This document shows positions 32,928 to 42,961 of a DNA stretch of 64,000 nt, one piece after another (the stretch's first letter is position 1; the number at the start of each line of letters is the position of its first letter). Made by a program: the position numbers and the translations under genes. The stretch is from Planctomyces sp. SH-PL14 (GTDB lineage Bacteria; Planctomycetota; Planctomycetia; Planctomycetales; Planctomycetaceae), in the NCBI RefSeq assembly GCF_001610835.1, contig NZ_CP011270.1, positions 8,307,256 through 8,371,255 on the forward strand. Reading direction: 5' to 3'. The notes beneath the pieces are model-generated. The model had not been told where the DNA came from. It was given only the letters and a program-made list of their open reading frames with translations, and did not search any database.

Positions 32928-33253
32928 CCGGGGTCCAGGGGGTACCCCCTGGTGGGGGATGCAAGGGGGCAACGCCCCTTTGCCCGCCGGAGGCCTGGCC
33001 GTCGAGAGATGTCTGAAGGAGTGAGTGTCCAATCGCGAACACCATGTCGTATGCCCCCTCGCCAACTCGCGGGGATTGCACAGCGAGCGGTGTAGATGGA
33101 GGGAGTCCTCAACGCGGGTACCACAAAAGGAACGTCCGTTGCCTACTACGGTTCCTCATGGAAGTGCCTCCGGCGGCAAGGGGGTGAGACCCCCTTGACC
33201 CCAGCGGCCGTGGAACATTGGGTTTGAGCTATGGGAGTCGTGCCGGCAAGGAA
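32928..33253 (+). repeat. Intergenic structured repeat, copy R7
   Basis: This 326 bp copy sits between the divergent permease and gatB genes, ending about 110 bases before the gatB start. H1 has an 8 bp stem (CCAGGGGG/CCCCCTGG) with only a TA loop. H4 is of the T·A type. The right-edge tail GGTTCGAACC is present. Confidence 0.9.
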
Positions 33254-35177: not shown

Positions 35178-38100
35178 GTGATCCAACCCGTTTCCGGCCT
35201 GCCGGTCGACGACGCTGGAACTGCTCCGCCGGACGCGCACGCACTCGGCGAAATGATCGCCCGGGCGGCGGAACTCCTGCCGATCCACGGGCCGATCAGC
35301 GCGTTTGTGTTCCTCAACGCCCTCCAGGGCCTCGAACACCTGCCGTTTCACGACGCGCTGAAAGAAGGACGCCGGCTGTACGGAAGCGAGCCGTACCTGT
35401 CGGAAGACGCCTACCGCGAGAAGATGTCGCACGGCCGGATCTGCCGGGAGGACCTGGCGGATGTGCTGCGATTCGACCTGGGGACATCGGGCGAGGAGGT
35501 CGTCGCGGGACTTTCGAAGCGGCACGATCTGCGGATGGGGATGCTCGAACATCCCGTGCGGACCGGCCCCCCAGAAGAGATCGAGTGGTTCGTGGCCGAG
35601 ACCGACGCCCTGCAGCAGATGCGGAGGGAGGCGTCGGAGGACGCGCGGCTGCGGATCATCGACGAGACCCGCAAGTGGTTTATGCGGAGCCTTTCGGAGC
35701 GGTCCACCCCGGCGGGACAACCACTGACCGGCAAGGACGATCTCATCGAGGACCTCCGCGCCCGCTATGCCTCGATTCCGGTCGACAGCTGGTCCCCGGC
35801 GACCTGGGAAGCGGTGTCGCTCCAGTCGCTGTGGCGAGTCTGTTACAACGCGATCCTCAATGTCGAGGCGGGCCGGGCTGAGAACGGGAACGGCCTCTGC
35901 CGGCCGCGGGACCTGCTCCTGACCGCCTTGACGGACGACAGCGACCAGCTCGTCCACCAGCAGTTCATCCCCTTCTGCTCGGCGTTCATCGACCAGGGGT
36001 TCGCCTCGCAGCCCCTGCCGGACCGAGAGCTGGGGTTCTGGACCTGTTTCTCGCGGCTCTACCGAGACACCGCCACCTGCCCGCAAGGCTGGCTCGTCCC
36101 GCTGGGCGAAGAGCTGAAGCGTCTGGAAGGCTCCGGTCTTTCTCCGCTGGAGATCATCCGGGACTCCGTCGAGCGGATGGGGGTTCCCCCGCAGTATGTG
36201 GAGGATTTCCTCAAGCGGACCCTGCTCGCCTTCCGCGGCTTCGGCGGGATGATCTGGCAGATGGAGGTCCGGAGCGACCGCGTACGGCGTCCCGTGCCGA
36301 CAGGCACGCTAATCGAGTTCCTCGCAGTGCGGCTCGTGCTCGACCGCCTCGCCTGCCAGTGGATCGCTCGGACAGCCCTCGGCTATGAGAGGCCCCTCGC
36401 CGATCTGCCGGACTGGATGGAACGGAATCACGTCAGCGCCGGCAAGGCGAAGCAGCCGCGGCACATCGTTCAACGGGCGTTCGAGGTCTTTCAGCTCGCC
36501 CAAGTCCTTGGCTGGTCAGTTCCACAGCTCGAGGGACTGACTCCCGACCAGTGGACGGAGCTGACGCAGGAGATCGAATCCTTCTGCGCGCTGGAGCGCC
36601 GGAGGATCTTTCACGTCGGTTTCGAGCGGCGATTTCGCGTACAGGCGCTCGATGCGATCGCCGCTCATCGTCAACACCCGGTCCGCCGCGTCCCCCGGCC
36701 GAAGTTTCAGTCGGTGTACTGCATCGACACGCGGGAGGAGTCGTTCCGGCGGCATCTCGAAACCGTCGAGCCGCACGCCGAGACGTTTTCGGCCGCCGGG
36801 TTCTTCGGGGTCCCGATCTACTTCAAGGGGGTGGCGGACGCCCACTTCTCGACTCTCTGCCCGATCGTGGCCCGGCCGAAGCACTGGGTGACGGAAGAGG
36901 TGGTCTACTCGCTCGATGACGAGAACCGGCGGCGGGCGCGGACCCGTCAGCTTCTCGGGCAGGCGACACGGTCGGTCCACCTCGGGAGCCGGCGGGTGGC
37001 CGGCGGAGCGCTGCTGGCGGCTGGCTTCGGGTTCCTGGCGACTGCGCCGCTCATCGCGCGGGTCCTGGCGCCGCGGCTGACGGCGAAGATCCGCCGCCGC
37101 GCGGCGCGGTTCATCGAGCCCCCTCCGGTGACGAAGCTCCGGCTGGAGCGGACGGCGGCGGAACCTGGTCCGACCCCTGAGGGGATCGGCTTCACCGTCG
37201 GTGAGATGGCCGATTTCGCCGAGCGGCTCCTGAGGGATATCGGGCTGACGTCCGGCTTCGCGCGGCTGATCTTCCTGTTGGGGCACGGCTCGTTCTGCAT
37301 GAACAATCCGCACAAGTCGGCGTACGACTGCGGGGCCTGCTGCGGCATGGGGGGCCCGAACGCCCGGGCCATCGCGGCGTTCCTCAACGATCCGCGGGTC
37401 CGGTCGATCCTCGCCTCGCGGGGGCTGGCCCTTCCGTCCGACACGTTCTTCATGGGGGGGATGCACAACACCGGGAACGACAGCATCGTTTACTTCGATA
37501 TCGATTCGCTGCCGTCGTCCCACATCCCGGACTTCGAGGCGGCCCGAAACGCCCTGATGGAGACCTGTAAGCGGAATGCCCACGAACGCTGCCGGCGGTT
37601 TCAGTCGGCGGCGGTCGACCTGACGCCGGAGGAGGCCAAGGCCCACGTCGAGGAGCGGTGCGAGGACCTGGCACAGGTCCGTCCCGAGTTCGGCAACGCC
37701 ACAAACGCCATGTGCTTCGTCGGCCGCCGCGGGCGGACCCGCGGACTGTACCTGGACCGGCGATGCTTCCTGCAGTCCTACGACCCCCTCCAGGACGACG
37801 AAGAGGGGACGATCCTGGGACGGATTCTCGCCGCAGTGGTTCCCGTGTGCGAGGGGATCAACCTCATGTACTACTTCTCGAGCGTCGACTCCCAGGGATG
37901 GGCCTGCGGCAGCAAGCTGCCGCACAACCTCGTCTCACTGATGGGGGTCATGGACGGCGCGGCGAGCGACCTGCGGCCGGGGCTCCCCTGGCAGGGGGTC
38001 GAGATCCACGAGCCAATCCGCCTGCTGTTCATCATCGAGTCGACTCCCGAGATCCTCCGCAAGATCATGAGCCGCAACGAAACGGTTCGCCGGATCATCG

Positions 38101-38297
38101 AGAACCGCTGGGTGCAGCTCTCGTTGATCGATCCGCAGACGTCCGAGATCTGCGTCTATCGGCGGGGGGAGTTCATCCCCTACGTCCCGGACGTCGCGGA
38201 GCTGCCGCGCGTGAGCAACTCCATCGACTGGTATCGGGGCCAGCGGGACCACCTCAAGTTTGCCCAGGTGGACGACGCCCTGACGCCCGACTCGTGA
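35178..38297 (+). CDS. dabA: DabA-type inorganic carbon transporter subunit (DUF2309/UPF0753)
   Basis: A 1039-residue protein matching DabA, the carbonic-anhydrase-like subunit of the DAB energy-coupled CO2/bicarbonate uptake complex. The zinc-site residues expected from Halothiobacillus DabA2 are seen: Cys515 and Asp517 (YCIDTREES), His703 (LGHGSFC) and Cys718 (YDCGACCG), with the same 15-residue His-to-Cys spacing. It is cytoplasmic/peripheral, with no signal peptide. The start is GTG 35178 without a clear Shine-Dalgarno; an internal ATG near codon 28 is an alternative. It is followed by two proton-channel-like genes, so it heads a transporter operon. Physiological role in a probable heterotroph (anaplerosis or pH) is inference. 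Confidence 0.93.
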   Translation: MIQPVSGLPVDDAGTAPPDAHALGEMIARAAELLPIHGPISAFVFLNALQGLEHLPFHDALKEGRRLYGSEPYLSEDAYREKMSHGRICREDLADVLRFDLGTSGEEVVAGLSKRHDLRMGMLEHPVRTGPPEEIEWFVAETDALQQMRREASEDARLRIIDETRKWFMRSLSERSTPAGQPLTGKDDLIEDLRARYASIPVDSWSPATWEAVSLQSLWRVCYNAILNVEAGRAENGNGLCRPRDLLLTALTDDSDQLVHQQFIPFCSAFIDQGFASQPLPDRELGFWTCFSRLYRDTATCPQGWLVPLGEELKRLEGSGLSPLEIIRDSVERMGVPPQYVEDFLKRTLLAFRGFGGMIWQMEVRSDRVRRPVPTGTLIEFLAVRLVLDRLACQWIARTALGYERPLADLPDWMERNHVSAGKAKQPRHIVQRAFEVFQLAQVLGWSVPQLEGLTPDQWTELTQEIESFCALERRRIFHVGFERRFRVQALDAIAAHRQHPVRRVPRPKFQSVYCIDTREESFRRHLETVEPHAETFSAAGFFGVPIYFKGVADAHFSTLCPIVARPKHWVTEEVVYSLDDENRRRARTRQLLGQATRSVHLGSRRVAGGALLAAGFGFLATAPLIARVLAPRLTAKIRRRAARFIEPPPVTKLRLERTAAEPGPTPEGIGFTVGEMADFAERLLRDIGLTSGFARLIFLLGHGSFCMNNPHKSAYDCGACCGMGGPNARAIAAFLNDPRVRSILASRGLALPSDTFFMGGMHNTGNDSIVYFDIDSLPSSHIPDFEAARNALMETCKRNAHERCRRFQSAAVDLTPEEAKAHVEERCEDLAQVRPEFGNATNAMCFVGRRGRTRGLYLDRRCFLQSYDPLQDDEEGTILGRILAAVVPVCEGINLMYYFSSVDSQGWACGSKLPHNLVSLMGVMDGAASDLRPGLPWQGVEIHEPIRLLFIIESTPEILRKIMSRNETVRRIIENRWVQLSLIDPQTSEICVYRRGEFIPYVPDVAELPRVSNSIDWYRGQRDHLKFAQVDDALTPDS

Positions 38298-38361
38298 CGC
38301 TCCGGCCCGCGTCCCTGTCTTCCGCCGTTGGCCCTGCTGATCCCCCTTCCCTTCCCCCTTC

Positions 38362-39744
38362 ATGAATCCGTCTCACCTTTTTGGTCTGGTCATCATCGCG
38401 GCTCCCCTCGTCATGCTGGCGATTCTGGGGATCAGCGCGGTGCTGCTGAAGCGGCCGCTGACCGAGACGGCGATCGGGCGGATCGTCCAGATTGGCATCA
38501 TCACCGGATTCCTGGCGTCGCTGGGGATGCTGGCCTACATGCTGGTGACCGGGACGCGGCACGTCCCGCTGTATCTGGGTGACTGGGTCCATGTGCATTC
38601 CGGGTTCGGTTCGGACTATCACTTCTCGATCAAGTTCCTGTTCGACCGGCTGTCGATCCCGTTCGTGATCCTGACTTTCGTGATCTGCGGCACCGTGGGG
38701 GCATTCGCGAACAGGTACATGCACCGCGAGCCGGGGTTCGGGCGGTTCTTCTTTCTCTACGCGATGTTCGTGGCGGGGATGATCATCACCGCCACATCGG
38801 GAACGATCGAGACGCTGTTCACCGGCTGGGAGCTGGTGGGGCTCTCCTCCGCTCTGCTGGTCGCCTTCTTTCACGAGCGGGTCATGCCCTGCCGGAACGG
38901 GCTGCGGGTCTGGACGGTGTACCGCTTCGCCGACGCGGCGCTCCTGCTGGCGTCGGTCGTCCTGCACCATCTGCATGGACATGGTGACTTCGACCAGTTC
39001 CTGAGCGAGCTCCCCTGGCCGGCCGGCGTGACCGCCCTGCCGCCGAACTGGATCCTCCTTGTCGGCGGGCTGCTGCTCATCGCCGCGGCGGGCAAGAGCG
39101 CCCTGCTGCCGTTTTCCGGCTGGCTTCCGCGGGCGATGGAAGGTCCGACTCCCTCCAGTGCGGTGTTTTACGGGGCGTTGTCGGTCCATCTCGGGGCGTT
39201 CCTGCTGCTCCGCATGAGCCCGCTCCTCGATCAGTCTCCGCTGCTGTGCGTCCTGATCGTCCTGCTGGGGCTGCTGACGGCGGCCTTCGGGGCCTTCGCC
39301 GGACGAGTGCAGACCGACGTCAAGTCCGCCCTGTCGTTCGCGGCCCTGACGCAGGTGGGGCTGATCGTTGCCGAGATCGGTGTTGGCCTGCGGTACATCG
39401 CGCTGATTCACATCATCGGCCATGCGTGCCTGCGGACGCTCCAGTTCATCCGGGCTCCTTCGATGTTGTATGACCTGCGGAACATCGAGAACGCCCTCGG
39501 CCAGCGGCTGGCGGCGGAGCACAGCGAGGCCGCGCCGACGAAGGCGCCCGCCTGGGTCTATCGCCTGGCCCTGGAACGCGGATACATGGATGCCCTGCTG
39601 GACGCCTGCATTGCCGGACCGTTCGTCCGGTTCTTCTCCGCGTGTCAGGCCCTCGAAACGCGGTGGACGAAGTGGCTCGCCGGCCCGGACGCCGGGGCGC
39701 CCAGCTGTCCGACCTCGAACGCCCCCCTGGAAGATCTGTTGTGA
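38362..39744 (+). CDS. NuoL/DabB-like proton-conducting transporter subunit
   Basis: A 460-residue polytopic membrane protein of the NADH-quinone oxidoreductase L/M/N (Mrp antiporter) family, with roughly 12 hydrophobic helices. Signature regions are GTIETLFTGWELVGLSSALLV (conserved Glu in WE), AAAGKSALLPFSGWLPRAMEGPTP and KSALSFAALTQVGLI. In DAB systems this type of subunit couples ion flow to DabA. It lies 64 bases after dabA and overlaps the next gene by four bases. The polar C-terminal tail (EHSEAAPTKAPAWVYRLALERG) is longer than in small DabB proteins. Confidence 0.9.
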   Translation: MNPSHLFGLVIIAAPLVMLAILGISAVLLKRPLTETAIGRIVQIGIITGFLASLGMLAYMLVTGTRHVPLYLGDWVHVHSGFGSDYHFSIKFLFDRLSIPFVILTFVICGTVGAFANRYMHREPGFGRFFFLYAMFVAGMIITATSGTIETLFTGWELVGLSSALLVAFFHERVMPCRNGLRVWTVYRFADAALLLASVVLHHLHGHGDFDQFLSELPWPAGVTALPPNWILLVGGLLLIAAAGKSALLPFSGWLPRAMEGPTPSSAVFYGALSVHLGAFLLLRMSPLLDQSPLLCVLIVLLGLLTAAFGAFAGRVQTDVKSALSFAALTQVGLIVAEIGVGLRYIALIHIIGHACLRTLQFIRAPSMLYDLRNIENALGQRLAAEHSEAAPTKAPAWVYRLALERGYMDALLDACIAGPFVRFFSACQALETRWTKWLAGPDAGAPSCPTSNAPLEDLL

Positions 39745-41186
39745 GTGAACTGCATCTCCCCTGGCTCGAGCTGGCGGTCCTGATCCCGCTTCTGGGATCG
39801 GCGGTCCTGTCGCGGATGCGGGACTCGCAGCGGGCCCGCAATGCCGCGCTGCTGTTCAGCGGACTGGCGCTGGTGTGTGCCGCGGGGGAGTTCGTCGACT
39901 TCACGGTGATGCACGCCACCCAGGCGGATGACCACTTCCACCTGCTGACGTTCCTGTTCGGCCGGCCGTTCCTTGTGATCGACCAGCTCAGCGCGCCGCT
40001 CCTGCCGCTGACGGCGATGATCTTCTTCATGGTCGTGGCGACGACGTCGTCCACGAAGCTCAGGCGGTTCTCGTTTCCGCTGGCGCTGCTGGAAGAGGCG
40101 ATCACGCTGGCGATGCTGAGCTGCAAGGAGCCGTGGGGGGTGATCGTCCTGCTCGGGCTGGCGGCGGTTCCGCCGTACCTCGATCTGCGGGCCCGCGGCA
40201 AGCCGACACGGGTCTTCGCCATTCATATGGCAGCGTTCATGCTGTTCATGGTGCTGGGGTGGAGCTTCGTCGAGAGCGAAGGGGGGCAGCATCATGCCCA
40301 TTCGCTGATCGCTGTCATTCCGCTGCTGATCGCCGTCTGTATCCGGAGCGGGATCGTTCCGTTCCACGCCTGGCTGCCGGACCTGTGCGAGAACGCGTCG
40401 TTCGGGACGGCTCTGCTGTTCCTGACACCGCTAACCGACGGGTATGCGGCGGTCAGGCTCCTGATGGCGACGTCGCCGTCGTGGGTGCTGAAGAGCATCG
40501 GCACGCTGTCGCTGATCACGGCTGTCTATACGGCCGGGATGGCGCTGATCCAGAAGGATGCGCGGCGGTTTTTTGCGTACCTGTTCATCAGCCACTCTTC
40601 GCTGGTGCTCGTCGGGCTGGAAGTCGTAACGCCGACGGCGCTGACGGGGGCGCTCAGCGTGTGGCTCTCTTCCGCGCTGGCGATGACGGGCTTCGGGTTG
40701 GCGATCCGGGCCGTGGAGGCTCGCCGCGGACGGGTGGACCTGAGCCGTTACCTGGGGCTTTACAGCTACACGCCCGCGTTGGCGGGGCTGTTCATGGTGA
40801 CGGGGCTGGCGAGCGTCGGCTTTCCGGGGACGATCGGGTTCATCGGGTCGGAGATGATCGTCGACGGGGTGGTGGTGACGTATCCCTACATCGGGGCGGT
40901 CGTGACGATCGCGGCCGCGCTGAACGGGATCGCGGTGGTGAAGGCGTATTTCTCAATCTTTACCGGGTGTGTCCATAAGGCGTCTGTTCCGCTCGAGATC
41001 CGCGGGCGGGAGCGGTTTGCGGTGTTGACGTTGGCGTCGATCATTTTCGTTGGGGGTCTGTTTCCGCAGGCGAATGTTCTGTCGCGGCATCATGCCAGCG
41101 AGGAATTGCTGAAGGAGCGGAATGTCGATCTTCACGAGACGATTGGCGGGGGTGAAGCGGCGCACGGTGCGGAGGCGACCCATTAG
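39741..41186 (+). CDS. Second NuoM/N-like proton-conducting transporter subunit of the dab operon
   Basis: A 481-residue polytopic membrane protein. GTG 39741 overlaps the TGA of the preceding gene (GTGA), and this start is used although the frame opens at 39642. Signature regions include SGIVPFHAWLPDLCENASFG, KDARRFFAYLFISHSSLVLVG and a C-terminal NGIAVVKAYFSIFTG typical of Nuo/Mrp channel subunits. The tail is His-rich. Together with the previous gene it gives two channel-like subunits beside one DabA, whereas the studied DAB pairs have one DabB. It is followed 2 bases later by repeat R8. Confidence 0.9.
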   Translation: MSELHLPWLELAVLIPLLGSAVLSRMRDSQRARNAALLFSGLALVCAAGEFVDFTVMHATQADDHFHLLTFLFGRPFLVIDQLSAPLLPLTAMIFFMVVATTSSTKLRRFSFPLALLEEAITLAMLSCKEPWGVIVLLGLAAVPPYLDLRARGKPTRVFAIHMAAFMLFMVLGWSFVESEGGQHHAHSLIAVIPLLIAVCIRSGIVPFHAWLPDLCENASFGTALLFLTPLTDGYAAVRLLMATSPSWVLKSIGTLSLITAVYTAGMALIQKDARRFFAYLFISHSSLVLVGLEVVTPTALTGALSVWLSSALAMTGFGLAIRAVEARRGRVDLSRYLGLYSYTPALAGLFMVTGLASVGFPGTIGFIGSEMIVDGVVVTYPYIGAVVTIAAALNGIAVVKAYFSIFTGCVHKASVPLEIRGRERFAVLTLASIIFVGGLFPQANVLSRHHASEELLKERNVDLHETIGGGEAAHGAEATH

Positions 41187-41188
41187 TC

Positions 41189-41513
41189 GTTCTTGCCGGC
41201 ACGACGTTGCTCGCTCAAACCCAATGTGCGACGGCCGCTGGGGTCAAGGGGGTCTCCCCCTTGCCGCCGGAGGCATTTTCGATGAGGAACCGTGGTAAAC
41301 GACGGATGTCCCCTTTGTGGCACCGGTATTGAGGACTCCCTCACCCGATGCCGCTCGCTTTGCAATCCCCGCGGGTTCGGTGAGGGGGCATACGGCACGT
41401 CCTCCGCGCTTGAACACTCACTCCTTCAGACATCTCTCGACGAGAGGGCCTCCGGCGGGCAAAGGGGCGTTGCCCCTCTGCACTCCCCACCAGGGGTACC
41501 CCCTGGACCCCGG
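41189..41513 (-). repeat. Intergenic structured repeat, copy R8
   Basis: This 325 bp copy in reverse orientation begins 2 bases after the stop codon of the dab operon, between convergent genes. H4 is shortened to a GGGGG/CCCCC stem with a TCT loop. The H2 hairpin has the GCAGAGGGGC/GCCCCTTTGC form. Confidence 0.9.
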
Positions 41514-42639: not shown

Positions 42640-42961
42640 GTCCTCGCCGGCACGGCTCTGCTTGCTCAAACCCAACGTGCTACGGCCACTGGGGTCAAGG
42701 GGGTCTCACCCCCTTGCCGCCGGAGGCACTTCCATGAGGAACCGTGGGACACAACGGGTGTCCGCTTTGTGGGACCGGCGTTGAGGACTCCCTCACATCA
42801 GAACGCTGGCTTTGCAATCCCCGCGGGTTGGTGAGGGGGCATACGGCACCGTGTCCGCGCTTGGATACGCACTGCTTCCGCCGGTGTCCGACGAGACGGC
42901 CTCCGGCGGGCAAAGGGGCGTTGCCCCTCTGCACTCCCCACCAGGGTGCCCCTGGACCCGG
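42640..42961 (-). repeat. Intergenic structured repeat, copy R9
   Basis: This 322 bp reverse-oriented copy lies between the divergent aldo/keto reductase and PadR genes. Its tip carries the longest conserved tail, GCTCGAACGATGTCCTCGCC. H4 is of the T·A type. It ends 60 bases upstream of the PadR -35 box. Confidence 0.9.

Follow-up and report, generated by a model that had tools for sequence, protein, structure and literature searches.

A dabA-first operon of Planctomyces sp. SH-PL14 with two complementary antiporter-like subunits: a proposed three-subunit DAC complex

In a window of 64,000 nucleotides (nt) from the genome of Planctomyces sp. SH-PL14, three same-strand genes, dabA followed by genes for a NuoL-like protein (L) and a NuoM-like protein (M), constitute one operon. 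We propose, with a probability of roughly 0.55, that they encode a three-subunit, proton-motive-force-coupled, CO2-hydrating complex of the DAC type, accumulating bicarbonate or dissolved inorganic carbon (DIC), with a composite proton path through L and M. Such a composite channel would be the simplest reading of an L without transmembrane helices (TM) 12-15 and a DabA membrane finger without its glutamate, next to an M that has an acidic residue in TM12. The genes, their order, their conservation, the residues lost or retained and the natural fusions among relatives were all observed directly.

A dabA operon with two antiporter-like genes

The open reading frames (ORFs) of a three-gene operon, as given in a preliminary description of this DNA, were confirmed on a single strand, as was the presence of two NuoL/M-type proteins after dabA. 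The dabA product matched PF10070 with 743 bits (cut-off 25) and the solved DabA2 with an E-value of 2.5e-72; L carries PF00361 and PF00662 and M carries PF00361, with NuoL and NuoM as the respective nearest models, both at scores under the curated cut-offs of those models. Judged by these matches, the zinc site and the adjacent NuoL-like subunit, the locus appears to belong to the DAC superfamily (PF10070 plus PF00361; DAB/MpsAB), and the DAB-type assignment made earlier was right at the superfamily level. The reported GTGA overlap between the two membrane genes also stands: M most plausibly starts with the GTG at 39741, in the GTGA that it has in common with the L stop, and a 514-amino-acid (aa) ORF from 39642 is merely the longest frame of M. 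Measured on longest ORFs, a 4-nt overlap of L and M was found in 23 of 49 loci with the order dabA-L-M. A scan for promoters and terminators gave an outcome no better than shuffled sequences. The features are as follows.

35178..38297, + strand: dabA, PF10070 subunit, 1039 aa, GTG start (profile match)
36720..36734, + strand: codons of Cys515 (zinc ligand) and of Asp517 and Arg519 (dyad), by alignment to DabA2
36969..37091, + strand: membrane-finger hairpin, about residues 598-638 (limits approximate), with Ala615 at the position of DabA2 Glu444
37284..37286, + strand: codon of His703, zinc ligand aligned with DabA2 His524
37329..37331, + strand: codon of Cys718, zinc ligand aligned with DabA2 Cys539
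37695..37697, + strand: codon of Asn840, aligned with the DabA2 Leu658 position
38362..39744, + strand: L, NuoL-like, 460 aa, TM1-11 plus a putative lateral helix, without TM12-15
39741..41186, + strand: M, NuoM-like, 481 aa, starting at a GTG that overlaps the stop codon of L
40851..40853, + strand: codon of M Glu371, the TM12 acidic residue

Recurrence and arrangement among relatives

Of 392 sampled Planctomycetota genomes, 61 encode PF10070. Beyond this phylum the analysis covered eight regions on plasmids and, by a single peptide-pattern scan, genome contigs; the scan returned 38 loci, all with planctomycete titles except one titled 'Bacterium'. After exclusion of DabA fragments shorter than 780 aa and of repeated DabA sequences there were 99 DabA rows, 14 of them without a readable arrangement and set aside, and the readable distinct rows comprised 50 with the order dabA-L-M, 20 with dabA-L and 15 with the canonical L-dabA. 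Subunit sequences shorter than 430 aa (one L and six M among the 50 dabA-L-M loci) were excluded, giving n = 49 for L and n = 44 for M. On plasmids, M found 212 records, all below 60% identity and the 15 listed at about 25%, and DabA found 123 records, none spanning 80% of the query. Seven genomes (G137, G181, G238, G333, G350, G381 and G389) combine a dabA-L-M operon with a pair in the canonical L-dabA order.

The same order in 50 distinct planctomycete loci argues that this is not a chance cluster and that L and M belong with dabA. It also bears on the view, raised in the preliminary description as one that would undo its reading, that the membrane genes form part of a distinct respiratory complex and merely lie beside dabA. 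Both proteins are indeed homologues of the complex I antiporters; against this, the spacing is tight, and the genome contains two further three-gene PF00361 clusters. Each of these has an identified NuoL-like gene and an identified NuoM-like gene, so complex I is not short of subunits that L and M would have to supply. L is 29% identical to the NuoL-like and M 25% identical to the NuoM-like proteins encoded elsewhere in the genome, and a separate respiratory complex is largely excluded.

A quickly built tree of 94 DabA sequences, for which the program warned of long branches and whose finer structure is not to be over-read, has one branch with 100% support that splits 24 L-dabA rows (the 15 above, DabA2 and the eight plasmid DabAs) from 70 dabA-first rows. 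The one trait that changed more than once is whether the M module stands alone or is fused to L, with three label changes in the tree, at least two of them supported.

Complementary losses in L and M

All 49 L sequences keep Glu157, Arg188, Asp191, Lys245, Ser266, Lys321, His350 and His354 (window numbering), which are functional positions in DAB2 or NuoL; Glu157 corresponds to the NuoL glutamate, and DabB2 has Ile151 there. L keeps the first half-channel only, without TM12-15: 75-105 residues follow the TM11 column in 49 of 49 sequences, vs 187 in DabB2 and 254 in NuoL, and the NuoL TM12 position Lys399/Asp400 falls in a gap in every one. That L is a frameshifted gene was ruled out, the short form being present in 49 of 49 rows. 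The AlphaFold2 model of L (mean predicted local distance difference test, pLDDT, of 82) has 11 TM helices, a helix at 407-440 and two short helices, and it superimposes on E. coli NuoL (7p7c_L) with a Z score of 38 and a root mean square deviation of 2.9 over 392 residues. This alignment, whose ranges show first and last residues only, reaches the NuoL lateral-helix (HL) region, so the modelled helix 407-440 may be a counterpart of HL.

M presents the opposite picture. An equivalent of NuoM TM5 Glu144 is found in none of 44 M sequences (Gly139 in the window), NuoM Lys234 is replaced by Arg in 44 of 44 (Arg202), the Lys265 position is a gap in 44 of 44 and His348 is replaced in 44 of 44 (Ser311). 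A TM12 acidic residue is retained in all 44 (42 Glu, 2 Asp), at or one residue beside NuoM Glu407, a residue assumed to release the proton to the P-side (PMC9271201). With its first-half residues lost, M on its own is probably not a channel. It was also ruled out that M is a detached tail of L, as M aligns with NuoM across nearly its whole length.

Conservation follows the same division. In L it is higher in TM4-8 (0.71) than in TM9-11 (0.62), the NuoL control pairs giving 0.48-0.52 and 0.51-0.64; in M it is higher in TM9-13 (0.60) than in TM4-8 (0.47), and the NuoM controls, which comprise three pairs only, are reversed (0.37-0.40 vs 0.44-0.49). Together with the residue losses, these complementary patterns make the two subunits look degenerate in complementary halves. 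The earlier statement that both channel proteins keep the Lys/Glu motifs consequently has to be revised, as it is true of L in the first half only, and the sequences do not support a reading of the two subunits as a pair of complete channels.

The latter point bears on the possibility that L and M are two separate channels moving more than one proton per turnover, in line with the ion-number idea of PMC5700660. Two PF00361 proteins per operon and the NuoL-like ion pair of L would suit this arrangement. Neither protein has both halves, however, L being without TM12-15 and M without the first-half residues, and the relatives with fused L proteins described below retain just an M-like half; two separate channels appear quite improbable.

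DabA active site and membrane finger

The zinc-site residues named in the preliminary description hold up, Cys515, Asp517, His703 and Cys718 corresponding to DabA2 Cys351, Asp353, His524 and Cys539, and the zinc ligands and the Asp-Arg dyad are intact in 50 of 50 dabA-L-M, 20 of 20 dabA-L and 15 of 15 L-dabA rows. The finger is different: none of the 70 dabA-first rows has a Glu at the position of DabA2 Glu444, and in 50 of 50 dabA-L-M rows the finger core contains no acidic residue at all. Three dabA-L rows have an Asp elsewhere in the finger core, and one of the 15 L-dabA rows is likewise without the finger Glu. In DAB2, replacement of Glu444 by Ala or Gln abolished activity (PMC13144422).

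A second change lies at the position of DabA2 Leu658, stated to be strictly conserved in 150 homologues (PMC13144422). It is Leu in 15 of 15 L-dabA rows and in all eight plasmid DabAs, His in 20 of 20 dabA-L rows and either Asn (28) or His (22) in the dabA-L-M rows. Canonical beta-carbonic anhydrases have Gln or His at this place, and Leu658 mutants of DAB2 keep activity in vivo (PMC13144422). A Foldseek search of the PDB with the DabA model yielded no match at an E-value of 0.001 or better, and the DAB2 structure 9rd0 was absent from the best 50 matches of each structure search, perhaps because the library ended on 8 April 2026.

Fused L proteins

Nineteen dabA-first rows have a long L (625-808 aa) and no separate M; a twentieth row sorted as dabA-L (L107) has an L of 432 aa with an M-like ORF after it and is not counted as fused. 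Sixteen of the 19 fall in group f46, which consists of anammox bacteria, hydrazine-synthase alpha being found in five of six f46 genomes tested. The tail of the L134 protein matched the M profile over M positions 190-437 (independent E-value 7e-31), and so did the tails of five L proteins of 625-653 aa (4.8e-17 to 2.2e-15) and 5 of the 13 tails of a type with some 665 aa (1.5e-7 to 3.5e-6). In group comparisons with M by hhalign, the first subgroup reached a probability of 96.9% and the second 55.6%, as against 0.1% for 13 tails of canonical DabB, and the best E-value of shuffled controls for the tail-M comparison was 0.099. A Glu in a TM12-like motif is present in 19 of 19 fused tails. In those fused L proteins that were inspected by eye, from sequence and hydropathy, TM9-11-like segments are repeated ahead of the TM12-like one, and the fused tail therefore looks like a second antiporter half, not like L's own TM12-14.

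These fusions also speak to the idea that M is a structural or assembly subunit, keeping the shortened L and the finger of DabA in place, with protons passing through L (with the finger) alone. The loss in M of the TM5 Glu, the TM7/TM8 Lys and the His348 position would suit a scaffold, as would the retention of only a part of M in fused L proteins. A scaffold would not need an acid, and yet the acid persists in TM12 of all 44 M sequences and in the TM12-like motif of every fused tail; an L without TM12 and a finger without Glu would, moreover, be left to carry the protons. We regard a purely structural M as unlikely.

Proposed mechanism and its weighing

The assembly of the complex, its proton path, direction, substrate and activity, as we infer them, would be as follows. 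DabA would bind zinc and turn CO2 into bicarbonate on the cytoplasmic side, as its conserved residues suggest. L would give the first half-channel, ion pair included (E157, R188, D191, K245, K321, H350, H354), and M the second half (TM9-13), with Glu371 as the terminal acidic residue. M would thereby assume the role proposed in DAB2 for TM12-13 of DabB2 together with the DabA2 finger Glu444, and the DabA finger would be the mechanical link between the composite channel and the CO2-hydrating zinc site. Isolated antiporter modules are described as able to conduct protons (PMC11496545).

Several observations weigh against this composite path. The first half-channel differs too, as DabB2 His260, Ser316 and Lys347, which are required in DAB2, are replaced in L by Tyr (49/49), Ala (48/49) and Arg (49/49), with Tyr270 and Arg358 at the His260 and Lys347 positions in the window. 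One of the 49 L tails contains a hydrophobic segment. MAFFT sets the M TM12 acid one residue off NuoM Glu407, although the M profile aligns the two, and 8 of the 13 tails of the L type of about 665 aa are not matched individually by the M profile. The pLDDT of the DabA model is below 50 at 708-723 and 831-840, which are active-site stretches. Two loci of canonical order in group f46, L072 and L074, combine an M-like tail on DabB with a DabA that retains the finger Glu, so one solution does not strictly rule out the other. The losses of the finger Glu, Leu658 and the DabB TM12-15 coincide with the single deep split of the DabA tree, and this covariation consequently counts once, as one event and not 70. 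Finally, the window has no match to SulP (tblastn, one seed) or to carbonic anhydrase.

More tentatively, and with a somewhat less than even chance in our estimation, the DAC complexes may have two proton-path designs, one with the finger Glu as in DAB2 and one with a second antiporter-like protein in the dabA-first clade of planctomycetes and anammox bacteria, where the module is whole, halved or fused. This broader reading includes a polar His/Asn active site, resembling that of beta-carbonic anhydrases at the Leu658 place, and a DAB1 third protein that would be a shrunken relative of the module. On the last point, the middle protein of the DAB1-type locus of Nitrobacter (253 aa, L148 4697-5458) matched the L072/L074 tails in hhalign with an E-value of 1.3e-5, where 30 shuffles reached 0.16 at best and the reversed control 0.4; those tails in turn matched M at 1.4e-11. 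Compared directly with M, the Nitrobacter protein gave no score (1.2%), and a search for further DAB1 middle proteins on plasmids returned the same record only. From these sequence comparisons, the DAB1 third subunit may be a distant, half-antiporter-like relative of the M module. The DabB proteins of L072 and L074 are 848 and 883 aa long, and their genomes, G106 and G248, are both hydrazine-synthase positive.

A dabA-first clade of planctomycetes without RuBisCO and of anammox bacteria, carrying an extra membrane module, would be a natural experiment on the coupling of proton flow to CO2 hydration. Antiporter halves that nature has split or fused are also informative about the workings of complex I-type channels.

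Genomic context

Named from their translations, the genes next to the locus in the window are gatB on the upstream side and, downstream, one resembling aldo/keto reductases. Eight families of interspersed direct repeats (77-300 nt) were reported, some overlapping, with 3-7 copies each that are 60-91% identical to the reference copy; copies include window positions 41189-41487, 42640-42938 and 32928-33227, one lying directly behind the M gene.

Among relatives, a SulP-type transporter flanks 20 of 50 dabA-L-M loci, in 15 cases no more than about 600 nt past the M gene, and a carbonic-anhydrase-like sequence flanks 15 of the 50. One or the other flanks 27/50 dabA-L-M, 3/17 dabA-L and 0/15 L-dabA loci, all flank counts being lower bounds owing to contig ends. 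Eleven of the 15 flanking carbonic anhydrases are one conserved beta-type gene with at least 73% identity, divergent from dabA (L087-L091, L094, L096, L105, L108, L109 and L112).

The SulP neighbours, as a bicarbonate or anion transport setting, lend some colour to the alternative that the complex is a cation/bicarbonate symporter and not a vectorial carbonic anhydrase. Such a mechanism has been proposed for MpsAB, its relative from heterotrophs, which is reported to transport bicarbonate (PMC8552792). A fully intact zinc site and the finding of no sodium need in DAB2 (PMC13144422) count against it, and a symporter appears improbable.

A free cytosolic carbonic anhydrase would be expected to short-circuit a vectorial one. 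Elsewhere in the SH-PL14 genome there are four beta-type and one alpha-type carbonic anhydrase matches and four SulP matches. Counted by eye, beta-carbonic anhydrase is present in 28 of 32 sampled genomes with this DabA type, and the four genomes without it are 77-86% complete. This coexistence is unusual, contrasting with the statement that a DAB/MpsAB-type system and carbonic anhydrase rarely coexist (PMC8552792). The suggestion that the planctomycete is probably not an autotroph is supported as far as RuBisCO goes, to which the test was limited: the genome has no match to the large subunit, and RuBisCO-based autotrophy was ruled out. The use of bicarbonate uptake, earlier called open, is less so given that MpsAB serves non-autotrophs (PMC6689103, PMC8552792).

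Comparison with known systems

The gene composition is already in print. In clade C of the 2017 COGNAT analysis, a nuoL homologue lies downstream of ybcC (dabA), frequently accompanied by COG1008 (NuoM) and COG0659 (SulP) (PMC5700660), the same operon composition and order as here; the SulP neighbour is frequent there, not obligatory, and the window locus is without a SulP match. In its accessible part that account proposes another function and contains no analysis of channel residues, truncation, fusion or active site. A literature search whose scope excluded most subscription papers and all bioRxiv preprints found no account of a channel split in this way, of a finger without its Glu or of the change at Leu658.

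MpsAB of Staphylococcus aureus, compared by description only, likewise combines a NuoL-like and a PF10070 protein in a heterotroph (PMC6689103) and is named a two-component system, vs three genes here. From complex I, L differs in being without the Lys399/Asp400 region of NuoL, and M in being without Glu144 and Lys265 of NuoM and in having Arg for Lys234.

The DAB1-type systems (hneap_0907-0909; Nitrobacter hamburgensis plasmid, L148) have a DabA, a NuoL-like DabB and a third membrane protein as well; the Nitrobacter locus differs in its order, DabB-middle-DabA, and in keeping the finger Glu and Leu658, and its middle protein is equated with hneap_0908 by position only. The N. hamburgensis plasmid has two DUF2309 genes (L148 1-1637 and 5443-8556), each followed by a PII gene, the two PII genes sharing one protein accession; the second of the pair adjoins RuBisCO and carboxysome genes. 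The preliminary description's one DabB per characterised DAB pair fits DAB2; DAB1 is described as having a third, small membrane protein (PMC13144422).

With DAB2 of Halothiobacillus neapolitanus (PDB 9rd0) the locus shares PF10070, the Cys2His zinc site, the Asp-Arg dyad, the finger segment and a NuoL-like partner. In DAB2 the finger Glu444 replaces NuoL Lys399/Asp400, and the finger and DabB2 TM12-13 form the probable periplasmic half-channel (PMC13144422); its DabB has 15 TM, with TM11-14 contacting the finger, whereas the window L is without TM12-15. The window locus further differs in placing dabA first and in having Ala615 for Glu444, Asn840 for Leu658 and Glu157 for DabB2 Ile151. With M added, its gene content suggests three subunits, as against the two-subunit heterodimer of DAB2.

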